In this document: positions 18,011 to 62,429 of the stretch, in pieces | How the letters are laid out: each line of letters starts with the position of its first letter | Numbering within the stretch: the stretch's first letter is position 1 | NCBI GenBank assembly: GCA_949372655.1 | Contig: CASIAI010000001.1 | Coordinates: 263,279 to 327,278 of the forward strand | Length of the DNA stretch: 64,000 nt | DNA from: Candidatus Poseidoniaceae archaeon | GTDB lineage: Archaea; Thermoplasmatota; Poseidoniia; Poseidoniales; Poseidoniaceae | Direction: 5' to 3' | Notes under the pieces: generated by a model | What the model saw: only the letters and a program-made list of their open reading frames with translations | What the model was told of the DNA's origin: nothing | Database searches by the model: none | Made by a program: the position numbers and the translations under genes

Positions 18011-18331
18011 TCATTGAAGGAAGAGCGGCAATGCACCAAGAATCACGATTGATTCTGGCAACGCTGTAAAGATAAGCGCGACACCGAACTTGCTTCCATC
18101 TTCAGCAAGCATTCCGACAGCAGCGCTACCAATAGCAGCTTGGGAGAAACCAGCGCCAATGGCCGCAAGACCAAGTGCTAGTCCAACACCGATCATGCCG
18201 ATGTCTCCGTTTATGTCGTTCGAATCGTCGTCGGTTGCTGCATCTTGTGCAGCGGCACCTTGTGCGACCAAGGTAAGTACCAACAGTACGATCAGTGTTC
18301 TTAGGCTCATTTTCAGGGTATTATTATTCAT
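18011..18331 (-). CDS. atpK: A-type ATP synthase proteolipid subunit K (c-ring)
   Basis: Subunit K oligomerises into the rotor ring that carries the coupling ion. The 106-aa product has a hydrophobic N-terminus (residues 9-23) ending AQGAAAQ, which looks like a cleavable signal peptide. An acidic linker DAATDDDSNDINGD follows, then two membrane helices. The ion-binding carboxylate is E93 in TALPESIVILG. TM1 carries Q64 in GFSQAAIGSAAV, next to the conserved AEDGSKFG loop. Q in TM1 with ES in TM2 resembles the ligand set of Na+-binding c-subunits, but this is suggestive only. GGAGGTAG precedes ATG 18331; the longer ORF to 18346 would include the ribosome binding site. It sits between atpI and atpE. 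Confidence 0.94.
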   Translation of the reverse strand: MNNNTLKMSLRTLIVLLVLTLVAQGAAAQDAATDDDSNDINGDIGMIGVGLALGLAAIGAGFSQAAIGSAAVGMLAEDGSKFGVALIFTALPESIVILGALPLFLQ

Positions 18332-18361
18332 TTTTGCTACCTCCATTTATTGTCCAGTGGA

Positions 18362-20686
18362 CTATGATTTACCCTCAACGTGTAGGGTGCGGCCGCCAAG
18401 CGGCGCAAAAGCGCTGCCCGAGCCATCGTAAAATTTGCCCATCCATTCTACAAAGTGTAGACGGACGGCGTGAATAGTAGGGGAAAGTATCCCGAGTGCT
18501 ATAGCGAATAACTGAATTAGAATAAATAAAACGACGCCTAAGAGTAAAGATATTATGTCACCAGAATCAATTGCGGGGCCTATTTTATCCCAGCCCATGG
18601 TTATGGAAACTTCTGCAATTTTAACACCAGCAACACCGACTCCCATTATCCTGAGGTATGAAAGCGTGTTAGCAAGTAGGCCAAACGTTTCTATTGGCCC
18701 CATGATAAGTCCTCCAACCCATCCAAACTTCTCGTAGACAGCAAGACCAACTATCAGACTTGCAAGTCCAATAATAATTAAGAAAGTCCAAATTTGTATC
18801 TCGAACAACCCATTATAGTCCATAACCATGTTTCTAGCCTGTATTGAACCACCGGTTAGAATCAGTATCCAAGAGCCTTTCTCAAAGTATGCCGCTGCTG
18901 CGCCATGTGCATTGTAAACAGTCACAAGTCCGATTACTAGACCGAGGAAAATATGTGCAATTCCTATGTATACTGACAGGACTACATACTCTTGTAAGCC
19001 ATGGCCAGGGCTTGCTCTATGGAATGGCATATGCAAGCCACCTAGATTGAGCACATCTGCAATTGCATGAGGGACATGTACGTTAGCATAAGTCCAATCA
19101 TAGAAGAAATCGAATGGGGAAGAATTACCTAGCCGACCAGTATCATCCCAAACGAATCCAAATCCTTCAGCGAAAATAATTCCCCAAATAATACACCATA
19201 CACCCATCCACTTGAGTATAGTGATACCATTTTGCGCCAATGGGTCTTTTGCGAATGGTTTGGAGCCCAAGAACGCGGCTAGTAGGTAAATTAGTAGACC
19301 ATACCCCCAATCTCCTAAAATCATGCCATAGAAAAGAGGGAAAGTCATCATCAAAAGCATTGAAGGATCATATGTACCGTATTTCGGCCTTCCAACTAAG
19401 TCGACCAAAAGTTCGAATGGTTCAGTCGCCTTTCCGTTAACGAATTCAATCGGTGGGACTGCGTCATCATGATGTGAATGAGAGGTTGAAGAAGAAACAC
19501 CTGCTAGGGCAATGTCTAATTCAGGTAAGTTGATTTTTCCATCCTTATTTAAGTCTATAACTGAGAGGAACTTTGCCAAATTCCAAGGAGGTAAGTCCTC
19601 TATATTTGCTGCTTTCAAGGCACTTTCGATTTCTTTATACTCTAGGTGCCCTGAATCATCAAGGTCCATCGATTTGAAAAATTGGAAGACCGTCTGATTT
19701 GAAGATTCGAGATAATCGGAAAGCATTACCAATTCTTCGGGATGCTTTTCCTCTTCCTGCTCTTCTTCATGGTGGTGGTGGGAATCTACGTACTCTTCTA
19801 TGGAAACGTGAGATGCACATTCAGAAAGTGCTGCTCTAACTTCATCTTCCTTATTCTTTGGAATCCATGCATCGAGAGCAAAAGCTTGATTACTGACTGC
19901 TACCAAAGTCGGTGCAGTGAATATTTGTTCTTCTCTTTCGAGGTGCTCCTTGACTCTAACAAGGTCTGACCCCTGTGAGTTTGTCCAGGTTTCAAGAGAC
20001 TCGGATGCACTATCTCTCTTAGAGTGAAGTCCTGAAATGGAAGTATTAATTTCTCTAATTCTCTGACTAGGAGTCCCTTCGCCGCTAGGAATCTGAACTG
20101 CTTTAGACCCTAGTTCTGCCAGAGCAATTTGAACTGCTGCGCCATCTTTTGGCTGACATGCAACTGCGATTATACCCTTGGAAACTTTAAGTTCAATATC
20201 TTTGATTATATCACTGAATACTGCTTGGGCTTTAGAAGCCTTACTCGTTTCCGACAAGTAGATTTCCACACCCTCATACCCAGACATCAATTCTAGAGGG
20301 ATGTCTAGAGGAGCAACTCTTGAAAGCGCCTTAAGTTGCTCTTCAAGAGAGGTTATCTCAGAATCACAATCTCTCATGAGTTCAATAAATCCAAGAGCTT
20401 CATCTACTTTAGATTCAAACCCAGCAACCATACCAATGATATTTTCACGAGAGGTTGGCCCATCCATGTTTATGGCATTAACTTCGGATTGAAGTGATCT
20501 AACCTTTGTAAGTAATCTACTGACTATCTCGGAATTATCGCTTTTTATTGAAGAACCAATCCCGATGCCATCTTCGAAGTTACTGTATTCTTCAATATGG
20601 ACGCAACCGAGATTGGTGCATTGGCGAATAACTTCTTCCAATTTACCGACTGGTGCAGCGACGGTTAATCGGGACATTTCAAGCAT
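18362..20686 (-). CDS. atpI: A-type ATP synthase subunit I (a-type) with inserted EF-hand pair
   Basis: Subunit I is the membrane stator that forms the ion half-channels against the c-ring. The soluble N-terminal half has the usual αβ lobe, coiled coil and second lobe (ALDAWIPKNKEDEVRAAL near 270-287). The membrane half starts at PFELLVDLVGRPKYGTYDPS (~423) and keeps the conserved FYGMILGDWGYG and LSYLRIMGVGVAGV, with the channel arginine. Between the halves is an insert of about 110 residues, 302-412: SHHHHEEEQEEEKHPEE, two EF-hand helix-loop-helix units, then TSHSHHDDAV. The loops DLDDSGHLEYKE (341-352) and DLNKDGKINLPE (378-389) have all canonical ligand positions. At 774 aa it is longer than the usual ~650-700. 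GAGGTG precedes ATG 20686. Confidence 0.96.
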   Translation of the reverse strand: MLEMSRLTVAAPVGKLEEVIRQCTNLGCVHIEEYSNFEDGIGIGSSIKSDNSEIVSRLLTKVRSLQSEVNAINMDGPTSRENIIGMVAGFESKVDEALGFIELMRDCDSEITSLEEQLKALSRVAPLDIPLELMSGYEGVEIYLSETSKASKAQAVFSDIIKDIELKVSKGIIAVACQPKDGAAVQIALAELGSKAVQIPSGEGTPSQRIREINTSISGLHSKRDSASESLETWTNSQGSDLVRVKEHLEREEQIFTAPTLVAVSNQAFALDAWIPKNKEDEVRAALSECASHVSIEEYVDSHHHHEEEQEEEKHPEELVMLSDYLESSNQTVFQFFKSMDLDDSGHLEYKEIESALKAANIEDLPPWNLAKFLSVIDLNKDGKINLPELDIALAGVSSSTSHSHHDDAVPPIEFVNGKATEPFELLVDLVGRPKYGTYDPSMLLMMTFPLFYGMILGDWGYGLLIYLLAAFLGSKPFAKDPLAQNGITILKWMGVWCIIWGIIFAEGFGFVWDDTGRLGNSSPFDFFYDWTYANVHVPHAIADVLNLGGLHMPFHRASPGHGLQEYVVLSVYIGIAHIFLGLVIGLVTVYNAHGAAAAYFEKGSWILILTGGSIQARNMVMDYNGLFEIQIWTFLIIIGLASLIVGLAVYEKFGWVGGLIMGPIETFGLLANTLSYLRIMGVGVAGVKIAEVSITMGWDKIGPAIDSGDIISLLLGVVLFILIQLFAIALGILSPTIHAVRLHFVEWMGKFYDGSGSAFAPLGGRTLHVEGKS

Positions 20687-34254: not shown

Positions 34255-36162
34255 TTAATCCTCTTCGCCCAATTCTTCTGCTTTCACTTCTTGTAGTTCA
34301 ACTGCTGGTTCAGTCTCATCGCTAGATGAAAGTAATTCTTCTAGGGAGACAGAACCATCTCCATCTACATCCGCTTTTTGGTGGATTTGAGTTGCTTCTT
34401 CCAATGACACGCCTATGGCTTGTGCGACATCTTCAATCGAAAGTTCATTACTACCTTCTGGACCTTCAAAGGCTTGTGAAAGCGCCTTCATTTGTTGTTT
34501 AAGTTCTTCCACTTTATCATTTCTCTCCTCAATAGTTGGGACATAAAATTGAGCTATGAGTTTGATAGAGTCTCCATGAGACAACTCACCATTAAATTCA
34601 AGCATATCTCCAATATTATTTACAATCACTTGGAACTTAGTAGGGTCTTTGGCTCTTCTCTTATTGTGCTTTTTATAATGATGAACGTAGACCTGATATT
34701 CACCAGGTTGAGCTGTATTATCATCCCAAACAATGTTCTCTACAGGTTTCTTGGTTTCTGGCCTTACATTAGCATCAACATCTAATTCACCACCACACGC
34801 AGATATCTTATTTCCGCCATGAATCCTCTCACCTGAAGGGCAAACAACGTGTAAATCTAAGTCGTTATAATTATTCCACATCAATGAAACTTGAACATCC
34901 CCTGAACGAGCACCTTCTCTTTCGAGTCTTTGCTGTAATTCTGACATTGCATTTTCTGCTGCCTGCCTAGATTCCATTTCTTCTTGTTGCCTAGCCGACT
35001 CTACTTCAGCCATTCTTTGAGTTTCAACGTCTGCCAATTCAGATTGTCTTTGATTTTCTTCTTCAGCCCGTTGATTCTCTAACTTCTCAGATTCTTGTGC
35101 TTCTTCTCGCATTTTTAATTCCATTTGGTTTTTAGCATAATCCTCTCGCTCTCCTCTTTCTGGAACCTCAAATTGACAAACCAACTTAATCGGGTCGCCA
35201 TGAGTTAATTCGCCATGGTATTCTCTAAAGTCACCAACATTATTGATAATAATTTGGAATTTAGTTGGATCACGAGTTCTTCGCTTTTTATGCTTCTTAT
35301 AGTGATGCGCGTACACTTGATATGTACCCGGTGTGGCTGAAACTCCCGGCCAAACAACATTCTCGACCGGTTTCTTAGTCTCTGCCCTAACATTTGCATC
35401 TACGTCTAATTCTCCGCCACATCCTGAGATTTTATTTCCACCATGGATTCTTTCTCCTGAAGGACAGACTACGTGAAGGTCCAAATCATTATAATTCTCC
35501 CACATAAGCGAAATTTGTACATCTCCACTCATTGCTCCTTCTCGAGAGAGTCTCTCTTGTAATTCGGCCATAGCCGACTCAGCAGCCGCTCTTGATTCCA
35601 TTTCTTCTTGTAATCGGGCTGATTCTAATTCTGCAAGTCTGTGTTCTTCTAATGCAGTCATTTCAAGTTGGCGGAGTTCTTCTTTTTCAGTCTCCAAACG
35701 AGCTTCTTCTTCTTCTCTATTACGAGCGACTCTTGCATCTTCTTCGAGACGTTGCCGCTCCGCTTCTTCCTCTTCAATCCGCTTACGATTCTCATCTTCT
35801 ATTCGACGAGCTTCTTCATCTTTAGACCTTCTACGATCTTCTTCACGGCGAAGAGTTTCTCTTTCTGCTTCTTCCTCGATTAGGCGTGCTTGTTCAGCAG
35901 CCATTCTTTCGGCATCTTGAACCGCTAGACGAGAATCGATTATTTGTTGGCGCCGCTTCCGATTTTCAACAACCGCTAGTTTACGGTCAATCTCTTGCTT
36001 AGTTTGTCCAAAACTAGGACTACCTGTGCCCTGTCTAAGTCCTTCTGCAGACATCCCTGGACGCATGTTCAGTTTGGCATCTGTTCTAACTAGAATGTAC
36101 CACATACCTAGTAAAAAACCGCCTCCCATGAGAGCCATTACACCCAAAGAAGCCGTATCCAT
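34255..36162 (-). CDS. Membrane-anchored coiled-coil protein with two DUF2135-like domains and an EF-hand
   Basis: The ~635-aa protein starts with one membrane helix (SLGVMALMGGGFLLGMWYIL). A long Glu/Arg-rich coiled coil follows, then two copies of a unit ending in a β-domain: VQISLMWENYNDLDLHVVCP and VQVSLMWNNYNDLDLHVVCP, each with GERIHGGNKIS and a later YQVYxHHYKKHxKRR. The β-domain resembles DUF2135/YfaP-type domains. The C-terminus carries one EF-hand loop, DVDGDGSVSLEE, before an acidic tail. GGGGTT precedes ATG 36162. It stands alone between purP and the divergent shikimate operon. A Ca2+-responsive cell-envelope or scaffold function is inferred; no enzymatic motif is seen. Confidence 0.7.
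   Translation of the reverse strand: MDTASLGVMALMGGGFLLGMWYILVRTDAKLNMRPGMSAEGLRQGTGSPSFGQTKQEIDRKLAVVENRKRRQQIIDSRLAVQDAERMAAEQARLIEEEAERETLRREEDRRRSKDEEARRIEDENRKRIEEEEAERQRLEEDARVARNREEEEARLETEKEELRQLEMTALEEHRLAELESARLQEEMESRAAAESAMAELQERLSREGAMSGDVQISLMWENYNDLDLHVVCPSGERIHGGNKISGCGGELDVDANVRAETKKPVENVVWPGVSATPGTYQVYAHHYKKHKKRRTRDPTKFQIIINNVGDFREYHGELTHGDPIKLVCQFEVPERGEREDYAKNQMELKMREEAQESEKLENQRAEEENQRQSELADVETQRMAEVESARQQEEMESRQAAENAMSELQQRLEREGARSGDVQVSLMWNNYNDLDLHVVCPSGERIHGGNKISACGGELDVDANVRPETKKPVENIVWDDNTAQPGEYQVYVHHYKKHNKRRAKDPTKFQVIVNNIGDMLEFNGELSHGDSIKLIAQFYVPTIEERNDKVEELKQQMKALSQAFEGPEGSNELSIEDVAQAIGVSLEEATQIHQKADVDGDGSVSLEELLSSSDETEPAVELQEVKAEELGEED
34528..35013 (-). repeat. 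Internal duplication, copy 2 (coiled coil + DUF2135-like domain)
   Basis: Codons from MAEVESARQQEEMESRQAAE through the domain end at FYVPT form the second copy of a 486-bp unit. It corresponds residue by residue, with few substitutions, to the copy at 35152-35637. The duplication includes part of the coiled coil as well as the β-domain, so it is a duplication of a whole segment rather than of the folded domain alone. Confidence 0.7.
35152..35637 (-). repeat. Internal duplication, copy 1 (coiled coil + DUF2135-like domain)
   Basis: Codons from LAELESARLQEEMESRAAAE through the domain end at FEVPE form the first copy of the duplicated 486-bp unit in the membrane-anchored coiled-coil gene. Both copies keep GERIHGGNKIS, CGGELDVDANVR and HHYKKH. 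Confidence 0.7.
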
Positions 36163-36319
36163 GACAACCCCAAGCCGAACATGTCTATTGAAGCATCGGT
36201 CAAAAGTATAGATTTTCAACTCCTAAAAAGTAATAATCTAGTAGTTTGAAAAGAAATTCTATTGTAATTTACACTGATTCAAAGCAAAGCATTGAGAGGG
36301 AGGAACTGTTCGCATTATC

Positions 36320-61310: not shown

Positions 61311-62429
61311 TCAAAAACCAGTGCGTCTTAGATACTCACATATCATTAGGAATACTAGGTATAATGAGATAAGTAAGAGTCCTTCCCATCTTTGAAACTT
61401 ATACGATGTACGCATTAACATTAGTGCTGCTAAAGTACTGATTACTGTTGAAGGAAGTATGAAATAAATAATCATATTTACTCCCTCGGGAGTTATTGTC
61501 AAAGGACTTATGATTGCTGCTGAACCTATGGAAAGTAAGGGGTCTGTAATATTTGAACCGATTAATGTCCCTATCGCAACTCCTTGACTTTTTCGAGCTG
61601 CCATCAATGCAATAGTCAACTCAGGTAGGGAAGTTCCAAGACCTGAAACAGTAGTTCCTATGACTGAATGAGGAACATTGAGTTTGTAAGCAATATCGCT
61701 AGCATAATTTACTAAGTGATGTGCTGCAAAAACGGCTAAGGATAATCCAATTAAAATCATAACAAAATATGCAGTTCCAGTCCAACTAATACCCTTTAAA
61801 TCGTTTACATTGCTATCATCTTCTTCCTTTTGTATTACTTTTCTGTTATACAATAGCCAAGTGATATAGAATAAGTAACTGAAAGATAAGAAGATCCCTT
61901 CTAAGCGTGATAAACTATAATCTGTTAGTAAGAATAGAGATAATAGTAATATGGACAACATCATGACTTGCCCATCTCTTCTTAGCCAAGAAGGTCTTAT
62001 CTCAAGGCCCCTTGATAGAGCCACAATACCGAGAATTAGGGTTATTTGGACTAAAATCGAACCAAGAATCCCGCCTATTGCAAAATCTGCAATTTCTGGG
62101 TTCGAAGAAGAATCCATCGCCGCTGTACTAGTTACTAAAATCTCAGGCAAAGAGGTACCGATAGAAACAATGGTTAATCCAATAACAACTTCTGGAATTC
62201 CACCCCTTCTAGCTAAACCTTTAGCTCCTTCAATAAAGAAGTCTGCAGAAACGACTAGTAAACCTAATGCTAAAGCCAAAATAAACAATGTGATTGGGAA
62301 ACTGTTGGAACCAAAATTAGAAGATAGAGCTTGACTAGCAATTATTCCGATGAATAATGCGCCTAAGATAAGTAGGGTATTGAATTGTAAAAGTTGAGGG
62401 ATACCCATCTCTTTTCTACCCTCTCCCAT
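61311..62429 (-). CDS. Ca2+/cation antiporter (CaCA family)
   Basis: A YrbG/CaCA-type sodium-calcium exchanger of 372 aa with about ten membrane helices. The two inverted α-repeats are visible: IGLTIVSIGTSLPEILVTST and IGTTVSGLGTSLPELTIALM, each with the GTSLPE ion-binding core. Asn and Asp follow in GTLIGSNITDPLLSIG. A first hydrophobic segment (LLILGALFIGIIASQAL) extends the usual YrbG N-terminus by about 40 residues. ATG 62429 is given; ATG 62408 is also possible. It is interesting next to other Ca-binding proteins of the window, the EF-hand AtpI and the EF-hand coiled-coil protein. Confidence 0.88.
   Translation of the reverse strand: MGEGRKEMGIPQLLQFNTLLILGALFIGIIASQALSSNFGSNSFPITLFILALALGLLVVSADFFIEGAKGLARRGGIPEVVIGLTIVSIGTSLPEILVTSTAAMDSSSNPEIADFAIGGILGSILVQITLILGIVALSRGLEIRPSWLRRDGQVMMLSILLLSLFLLTDYSLSRLEGIFLSFSYLFYITWLLYNRKVIQKEEDDSNVNDLKGISWTGTAYFVMILIGLSLAVFAAHHLVNYASDIAYKLNVPHSVIGTTVSGLGTSLPELTIALMAARKSQGVAIGTLIGSNITDPLLSIGSAAIISPLTITPEGVNMIIYFILPSTVISTLAALMLMRTSYKFQRWEGLLLISLYLVFLMICEYLRRTGF

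Follow-up and report, generated by a model that had tools for sequence, protein, structure and literature searches.

Few molecular machines are as conserved across life as rotary ATP synthases and complex I, and to our knowledge their core membrane subunits seldom take up an entire new domain. EF-hand domains do occur fused to a respiratory-chain enzyme in the EF-hand NDH-2 enzymes, which are single-subunit flavoproteins. According to the available part of one report (PMC6134880), Ca2+ activation has been proposed for some of them. An EF-hand-like domain is also associated with a rotary ATPase, the mammalian V-ATPase, in the case of mEAK-7, a separate protein whose ligands are degenerate (PMC9263379, accessible portion). 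Here we analyze a 64,000-nucleotide stretch from a Candidatus Poseidoniaceae archaeon (contig CASIAI010000001.1; the whole stretch is termed the window), in which AtpI, the A-type ATP synthase subunit I (subunit a; 774 aa, 18362–20686, minus strand), carries an EF-hand pair where its soluble half joins the membrane half. In contrast to NDH-2, the hosts described below are membrane proteins, three of them in ion-pumping complexes, and one module is common to several of them; in contrast to mEAK-7, the ligands in AtpI are invariant.

AtpI resembles subunit I of Thermus thermophilus (6r0z_N) in sequence family, in operon, and in consisting of a soluble arm and a membrane half; subunit I sequences outside the genus of the window differ in that no EF loops occur in the linker of any AtpI read. 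The insert itself is akin to calmodulin, centrin, parvalbumin, and calcium-dependent protein kinases (CDPKs) in having paired hands, canonical 12-residue loops, and E at position 12, and the closest solved sequences among the matches listed are radial spoke protein 7 and CDPKs. Unlike calmodulin-type sensors, however, the module is not free, being embedded in or appended to energy-conversion membrane proteins, and it is set apart from calmodulin-type EF pairs by an extra conserved N-terminal helix, EL.ML..YL.

The nearest published statement we found is a remark on calcium-binding-domain families in Poseidoniales: in the available text of PMC9258230, modules 135 and 45 are lineage-specific families of this kind in Ca. 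Poseidoniaceae and Thalassarchaeaceae, possibly involved in signalling, and ATP synthase, complex I, and oxidase are not named there as hosts. The gene fusions treated in the accessible part of PMC11237513 include no EF-hand. In the open-licence literature, as represented by titles and the starts of abstracts, we found no description of such an architecture on AtpI, NuoL, or other hosts, in agreement with a first-pass annotation of the window, which knew of no described Ca2+ switch of this kind in an A-type ATP synthase.

An EF-hand pair between the halves of AtpI

AtpI belongs to the A/V-type ATP synthase subunit I family, both by its V_ATPase_I profile (PF01496, 100.5 bits against a cut-off of 30.7, best stretch at residues 668–763) and by its position in the atp operon, where the genes for the C subunit (PF01992) and the c subunit (PF00137) adjoin it. 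A search of the source assembly, 75% complete, found no other subunit I gene; the three matching pieces belong to a single frame. The soluble N-terminal half (residues 1–300, 19787–20686; all AtpI features lie on the minus strand) is followed by a His/Glu-rich linker (301–316, 19739–19786), the EF-hand pair (317–397, 19496–19738), a His/Asp-rich linker (398–412, 19451–19495), and the membrane, ion-translocating half (413–774, 18365–19450), which matches subunit a of Thermus Vo. The first-pass annotation had assigned the pair to residues 302–412 (19451–19783); we confirmed these coordinates and found both loops within them, with the EF domain proper being narrower, at about residues 317–397. 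Loop 1 (DLDDSGHLEYKE, residues 341–352, 19631–19666) and loop 2 (DLNKDGKINLPE, residues 378–389, 19520–19555) both show the pattern originally read in them, with D, N, or S at positions 1, 3, and 5, G at position 6, and E at position 12.

The Pfam EF-hand_7 profile matched residues 333–389 (E = 4.9e-8, 33.7 bits, cut-off 30), and because it passes its cut-off beside V_ATPase_I, the pair is more than a chance pattern. Among the 60 of 179 PDB sequence matches listed were EF-hand proteins such as radial-spoke protein 7, centrin, parvalbumin, and CDPK. The label XopAW, which was also met for the module, was discarded: that match was sub-threshold (24–33 bits versus 120) and covered the EF-hand part only, so that it means no more than EF-hand.

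For the AtpI alignment we kept 76 rows, 44 of them with the EF pair, leaving out L001–L003 (pieces of the window gene), L005–L033 (genomes duplicating named loci), and L070, L076, L081, L102, and L110 (mistitled, frameshifted, or partial). Positions 1, 3, 5, 6, and 12 of loop 1 were invariant in all 44 EF-bearing rows, as were positions 1, 5, 6, and 12 of loop 2, where position 3 was always D or N; every one of these rows has the ligands of a canonical 12-residue loop (positions 1, 3, 5, and 12, with G at 6). Pooled over 241 AtpI pairs of 75–98% identity, the ratio of nonsynonymous to synonymous change (pN/pS) was 0.122 for the EF insert and 0.064 for its loops; the membrane half gave 0.106, the soluble half 0.210, and the His linkers about 0.26. 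Synonymous sites were near saturation in many pairs, which makes the figures rough and leaves the ranking of the pooled values clear. In single close pairs (e.g., L036/L037) there was more change in the EF insert than in either half of AtpI. Overall, the insert is under purifying selection and evolves about as slowly as the ion-translocating half.

The EF pair was present in the AtpI frame of 48 of the 62 genomes of the window's genus (counting insert-profile rows). Seven others (G041, G058, G059, G060, G067, G069, and G082) have an AtpI of 692–699 aa without it, five of these sequences having been read and two judged by length and a missing profile match; in the remaining seven, the AtpI region was not seen assembled. 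All 170 genomes of the family gave a match to subunit I with E ≤ 0.001, in some cases partial, and the named AtpI relatives were mostly Candidatus Poseidoniales/Poseidoniaceae (Marine Group II) or unclassified Euryarchaeota records. The linkers of G267, G183, and G318, the longest frames outside the genus among the matches listed, contained no EF loops, and a profile of the insert revealed no AtpI host outside the genus among the identified matches listed from 389 genomes of the phylum. A search for the insert across the lineage, which the first-pass annotation had suggested, therefore gave a divided answer, with the insert kept in most genomes of the genus and missing from every AtpI read outside it.

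That annotation had also reasoned that an insert lacking from all other genomes of the lineage would point to an assembly chimera, and the 48 carriers remove this ground. Most of the source sequences are metagenome bins, which would leave room for a chimera or an annotation artefact; however, the pair is also encoded in the single-contig chromosome record CM001443.1 (2.06 Mb, L062), the frame is continuous, and purifying selection is visible at the codon level. Given the breadth of sources, we rejected this explanation as hardly credible.

In a tree of 86 AtpI rows (midpoint root, with the linker and insert of the family rows excluded), the 44 EF-bearing rows formed one side of one branch (Shimodaira–Hasegawa-like approximate likelihood ratio test, 97, by a quick method), amounting to one change. 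Adjoining this clade are the EF-less rows L083 and L085–L088, four of which are identical over 300 bases to genomes of the same genus. Since a single branch holds all EF rows, the simplest history would be one gain, in which the pair was inserted once into AtpI in this genus and then kept in the carrying clade. Loop-like patterns elsewhere in L111, L173, L177, L179, and L186 were taken as chance, and a second insert in the long AtpI of G094/L084 (909 aa) was rejected, the extra length being a run of unknown bases.

Some AtpI sequences were found in unexpected company. L070 (CALKHD010000188.1), titled uncultured Flavobacteriales, encodes a Poseidoniaceae-type AtpI with the EF pair, probably reflecting contamination of that bin. 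In G199 and G203, which belong to another family of the order, the membrane half of AtpI is 57% identical to that of the window, compared with about 35–41% for the other listed full-length AtpI of their family, pointing to gene transfer or misbinning.

The His/Glu-rich flanks, which had been counted as part of the insert, turned out to belong to an older linker that Poseidoniaceae without the EF pair also have, as do the other Poseidoniales sampled. At the same site, EF-less relatives have a His/Asp loop with a mean of 8.1 His in 25.9 residues (31 of 32 rows; one did not fit the pattern), and the 44 EF-bearing rows have a mean of 9.0 His in 40.0 linker residues once the EF pair is removed. Among the sampled sequences, AtpI of other Poseidoniales likewise contains His in its linker; deeper relatives vary, some having such a linker (e.g., G318) and others lacking it (e.g., G525). 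The EF-less loops imply that the EF pair was inserted into an older His-rich loop, and a lineage-wide unit made of both was rejected because the His loop predates the EF pair.

The AlphaFold2 (AF2) model of AtpI was weak, with a predicted local distance difference test score (pLDDT) of 67.4 and a predicted template modeling score (pTM) of 0.37. Its best Foldseek match was Thermus V/A-ATPase subunit I (6r0z_N; E = 2.7e-18, probability 1.00), with TM-scores of only 0.30/0.35 for this weak model, and it also matched 3rrk, the cytoplasmic N-terminal domain of subunit I (E = 3.6e-8). On the strength of these two matches, the soluble half and the module are predicted to be cytosolic by homology. The AtpI model shows the EF pair as helices 317–328, 333–338, 350–359, 370–377, and 387–398 plus two short strands. 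Residues 300–314 and 399–443, which flank it and overlap the linkers, had pLDDT < 50; lying between such probably flexible stretches, the pair looks tethered, not built into a rigid hinge. When modeled alone, the module showed the expected helices (pLDDT 76.1, pTM 0.64), its best Foldseek matches being calmodulin and parvalbumin at only E = 0.046; the best matches read were mostly EF-hand proteins, none with a lower E than this.

One module on several membrane proteins

The insert profile, built from 19 rows, was run over 389 genomes of the phylum and 62 of the genus and gave near-full-length matches in proteins other than AtpI, namely a COX1-like multi-membrane protein and the complex I subunits NuoL and NuoJ2. 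The AtpI, NuoL, and COX1-like copies read scored 72–159 bits, compared with at most about 59 bits for generic EF-hands, so that on these three hosts the profile matches over its full length and above other EF-hands; an exception was G130, whose best match had only E = 1.1e-11. Mean identity between AtpI and NuoL copies was 57% (925 pairs, 41–71%), as it was between AtpI and COX1-like copies (333 pairs, 34–79%), and identity to a zinc-ribbon EF protein of the same genomes was only 33%. In all 73 modules from the four hosts, the residues at positions 1, 3, 5, and 12 are the same in loop 1, as are those at positions 1 and 12 in loop 2, and position 5 of loop 1, which is D in the zinc-ribbon EF protein, was always S. 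Twelve non-ligand positions (E318, L319, M321, L322, Y325, L326, F334, F336, F337, P366, P367, and L390) were also kept in at least 90% of the 73 modules.

One and the same module thus occurs on four membrane proteins, at least three of them in energy-conserving complexes, within one surface-ocean archaeal order, and in two of these proteins (AtpI and NuoL) it lies inside analogous His-rich loops. From these sequences, we read the roughly 80-residue EF-hand pair as a mobile module that was repeatedly grafted onto energy-conserving membrane proteins in Poseidoniaceae.

The COX1-like protein has open frames of 653–863 aa (some cut by the stretch fetched), with the module in its C-terminal tail. 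Module-bearing forms were read in g1–g9, nine of the family's eleven genera, and in g11 there is a profile match only. Pfam assigns L229 (G002) to COX1 (37.9 bits against a cut-off of 34.8), and the nine proteins aligned with it are relatives (27–65% identity to the first row) that give no COX1 match, so that PF00115 was found in one of the ten and the putative placement in the COX1 superfamily comes from L229 alone. A profile of the COX1-like proteins had no match in the PDB at E up to 1. Catalytic subunit I of haem-copper oxidases has six His metal ligands. No His was invariant across the 10 aligned rows, and a canonical COX1 (470–495 bits) was separately present in all eight genomes searched; we therefore rejected a catalytic oxidase and consider the host a non-catalytic relative. 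In the source assembly, 75% complete, no EF-bearing COX1-like protein was seen among the matches listed.

Among L229, L227, and relatives (G002 and G019), the COX1-like tail runs on, by Pfam, into a SAP domain in L229 or an HHH region in L227. SAP-like ends were also recognized by eye in L221, L225, L278, L282, and L283, and a DNA-binding-type tail on a COX1-like membrane protein is odd.

The second host, represented by L223, is NuoL of complex I (PF00361, E = 4.8e-64; TIGR01974, 425.6 against a cut-off of 407.5). The module was present in NuoL at all 26 fetched loci of genus g9 (Poseidonia), which come from 26 of its 30 genomes, where it sits in a His-rich loop analogous to that of AtpI; the 12 NuoL loops read in ten other genera have the same His/Asp-rich loop and no EF pair. 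This loop (HHAHHHLHHHDD...) precedes the FWSK helix of NuoL in all eleven Poseidoniaceae genera (16 loops: L264–L274, L234, L247, L249, L256, and L260). It is much like the AtpI linker, and a common proton- or metal-binding role is possible.

In ten Poseidoniales complex I loci (L268, L275, L276, L284–L286, and L288–L291), NuoJ is split into J1 and J2, the gene order being NuoI, J1, J2, K, L. J1 matches positions 1–63 of PF00499 (64.4 bits, cut-off 33.2) and J2 matches positions of about 80–146 at 24–29 bits; as the latter score is under the cut-off, the identity of J2 rests on synteny as well. J2 frames were 88–111 aa without the module (seven loci read) and 191–198 aa with the module at the end, behind the membrane part (G124 and G126 of genus g6, and G184 of another family of the order).

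As for the membrane side, a crude prediction puts the COX1-like tail on the side richer in positive residues in two of three proteins (0 versus 14 and 4 versus 18), and neither side is favored in the third, L222 (10 versus 9). The NuoJ2 module is likewise predicted on the positive side (4 versus 0), as judged from one module-bearing protein and one without the module. In NuoL, the loop between the HA(F/M).K helix and the F.SK helix would face the cytosol in the topology of complex I, which would put the module on the cytosolic side there too.

Possible roles of the module

What the hosts have in common is probably a tethered EF pair in a cytosolic location, and not the hinge of AtpI. We consider it most likely, at about even odds, that the module serves as a tethered Ca2+-dependent docking or regulatory domain. 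In AtpI, the pair would be expected to bind Ca2+ and thereby to affect activity; its loop 1 (D.D.SG.(I/L).E/D..E) resembles the high-affinity CD site of parvalbumin. A rise in cytosolic Ca2+ would fill both sites of the tethered module, and the filled module would expose a conserved hydrophobic face, consisting of the EL.ML..YL helix, F.FF, and the LPP between the hands. This face could then bind a helix of its own complex or of a common partner, and pumping or coupling by the ATP synthase and the respiratory chain would thereby track cytosolic Ca2+. Extended to the family, the proposal is that a single EF module, grafted onto ATP synthase, complex I, or the COX1-like protein depending on the genus and facing the cytosol in each case, lets cytosolic Ca2+ tune or physically couple the ion-pumping complexes of Poseidoniaceae; in this broad form we advance it only tentatively, as one possible account.

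A gene of the Na+/Ca2+ exchanger family is present in the window (372 aa, 61311–62429, minus strand), and since the family was found in all 21 genomes searched, a Ca2+ gradient could be maintained. This ATP synthase has been proposed to be Na+-driven (PMC6336850, available text), in which case Ca2+ extrusion and ATP synthesis may run on a common Na+ gradient. If the module does sense Ca2+, oxidative phosphorylation would be under direct Ca2+ control in archaea, a form of control otherwise thought of mainly for mitochondria. Such archaea would have reached, by domain grafting, a prokaryotic counterpart of mitochondrial Ca2+ control.

The first-pass annotation had suggested something more local, namely that Ca2+, or another metal held by the His/Glu flanks, bends or locks the hinge of AtpI and so gates the rotary enzyme. 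A conserved EF pair with intact ligands, located between the halves and kept across the lineage, is what we found; the hinge gate, as worded, was not supported. A device specific to AtpI that brakes or licenses rotation at the soluble–membrane junction would suit the insertion site, which is that very junction, and this portion of the enzyme can control rotation, since the rotor of isolated Thermus Vo is stopped when the soluble arm swings over to subunit d (PMC7367684, in the part available). However, the same module occurs on NuoL, NuoJ2, and the COX1-like protein, all of which lack the hinge; the kink points given for Thermus in the same text, L119 and A246, are in the coiled coil of the arm and not at this junction; and the module lies between low-confidence linkers. 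We therefore regard such a gate as improbable. Next in likelihood after the regulatory proposal we place a constitutive adaptor, in which metal-loaded EF pairs dock or dimerise and so bring ATP synthase, complex I, and the COX1-like protein together in assemblies, with Ca2+ being structural and not a signal. The occurrence of one module on several membrane complexes, the non-ligand positions common to the hosts, the probably flexible tethers, and the continuation of COX1-like tails into SAP or HHH domains in both cases tested are all in keeping with this idea; yet each genome examined has the module on only one or two hosts, and ATP synthase or complex I is often without it, which does not agree with a universal assembly role, and a partner was not found. 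On balance, an adaptor seems to us somewhat unlikely.

A passive role may also be considered, in which the pair buffers metals or cations, or is a nearly neutral graft that drift has preserved, and the His-rich loops independently bind transition metals or protons. The His/Asp-rich loops do predate the EF pair, and both AtpI and NuoL can have them without it, but purifying selection, invariant ligands, and other positions conserved over deep divergence, together with the presence of the pair in all 44 rows of its clade, make this explanation quite improbable.

Several observations weigh against a grafted, Ca2+-responsive module as we propose it. The module is dispensable for catalysis, because seven genomes of the genus and every AtpI read outside it do without one. 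Ligand positions are not uniform over the hosts: at position 5 of loop 2, 23 of 25 NuoL copies have N and one of two NuoJ copies has T; among the COX1-like copies, one carries M in place of G at position 6 and one carries T at loop 1 position 9; and in a single NuoL copy, E replaces the G of loop 2. The NuoJ copies of g6 scored only 59.5–68.5 bits, next to generic EF-hands, and may be of separate origin. A crude hydropathy prediction for NuoL gave 15 segments with 14 versus 14 positive residues, favoring neither side of the membrane for its loop, and the models of AtpI and of the module are both of middling confidence. The module tree across hosts (82 columns; built without duplicate modules, modules containing X, or modules scoring below 60 bits) was poorly resolved, with AtpI needing four changes, so that we claim no order of grafts; given the wide spread of the COX1-like host, this would be the likeliest source of the module. 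Among NDH-2 enzymes, moreover, fusion to an EF-hand domain does not in every case bring Ca2+ activation (PMC6134880), and, as a precedent that advises caution, the EF-hand-like domain of V-ATPase-bound mEAK-7 is structural and does not bind Ca2+ (PMC9263379), according to the accessible parts of the two reports.

Neighbouring genes

Next to AtpI in the same operon lies the gene for the c-ring subunit (18011–18346, minus strand; PF00137, 45.6 bits). An H/G-like gene of the operon was below the Pfam cut-off (22.8 versus 28), and subunits E, F, A, and B were assigned by eye from the sequence. Elsewhere in the window, a 654 aa protein (34255–36219, minus strand) contains a pair of similar repeats (DLDLHVVCPSGERIHGGNKIS) and, at its C-terminus, one EF-hand that at 22.5 bits is below the cut-off. 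In the same genome, a 732 aa zinc-ribbon-like protein (G000:C3:140985-144158, L114) shows seven EF-hand-like loops by pattern and is a further Ca2+-binding candidate.

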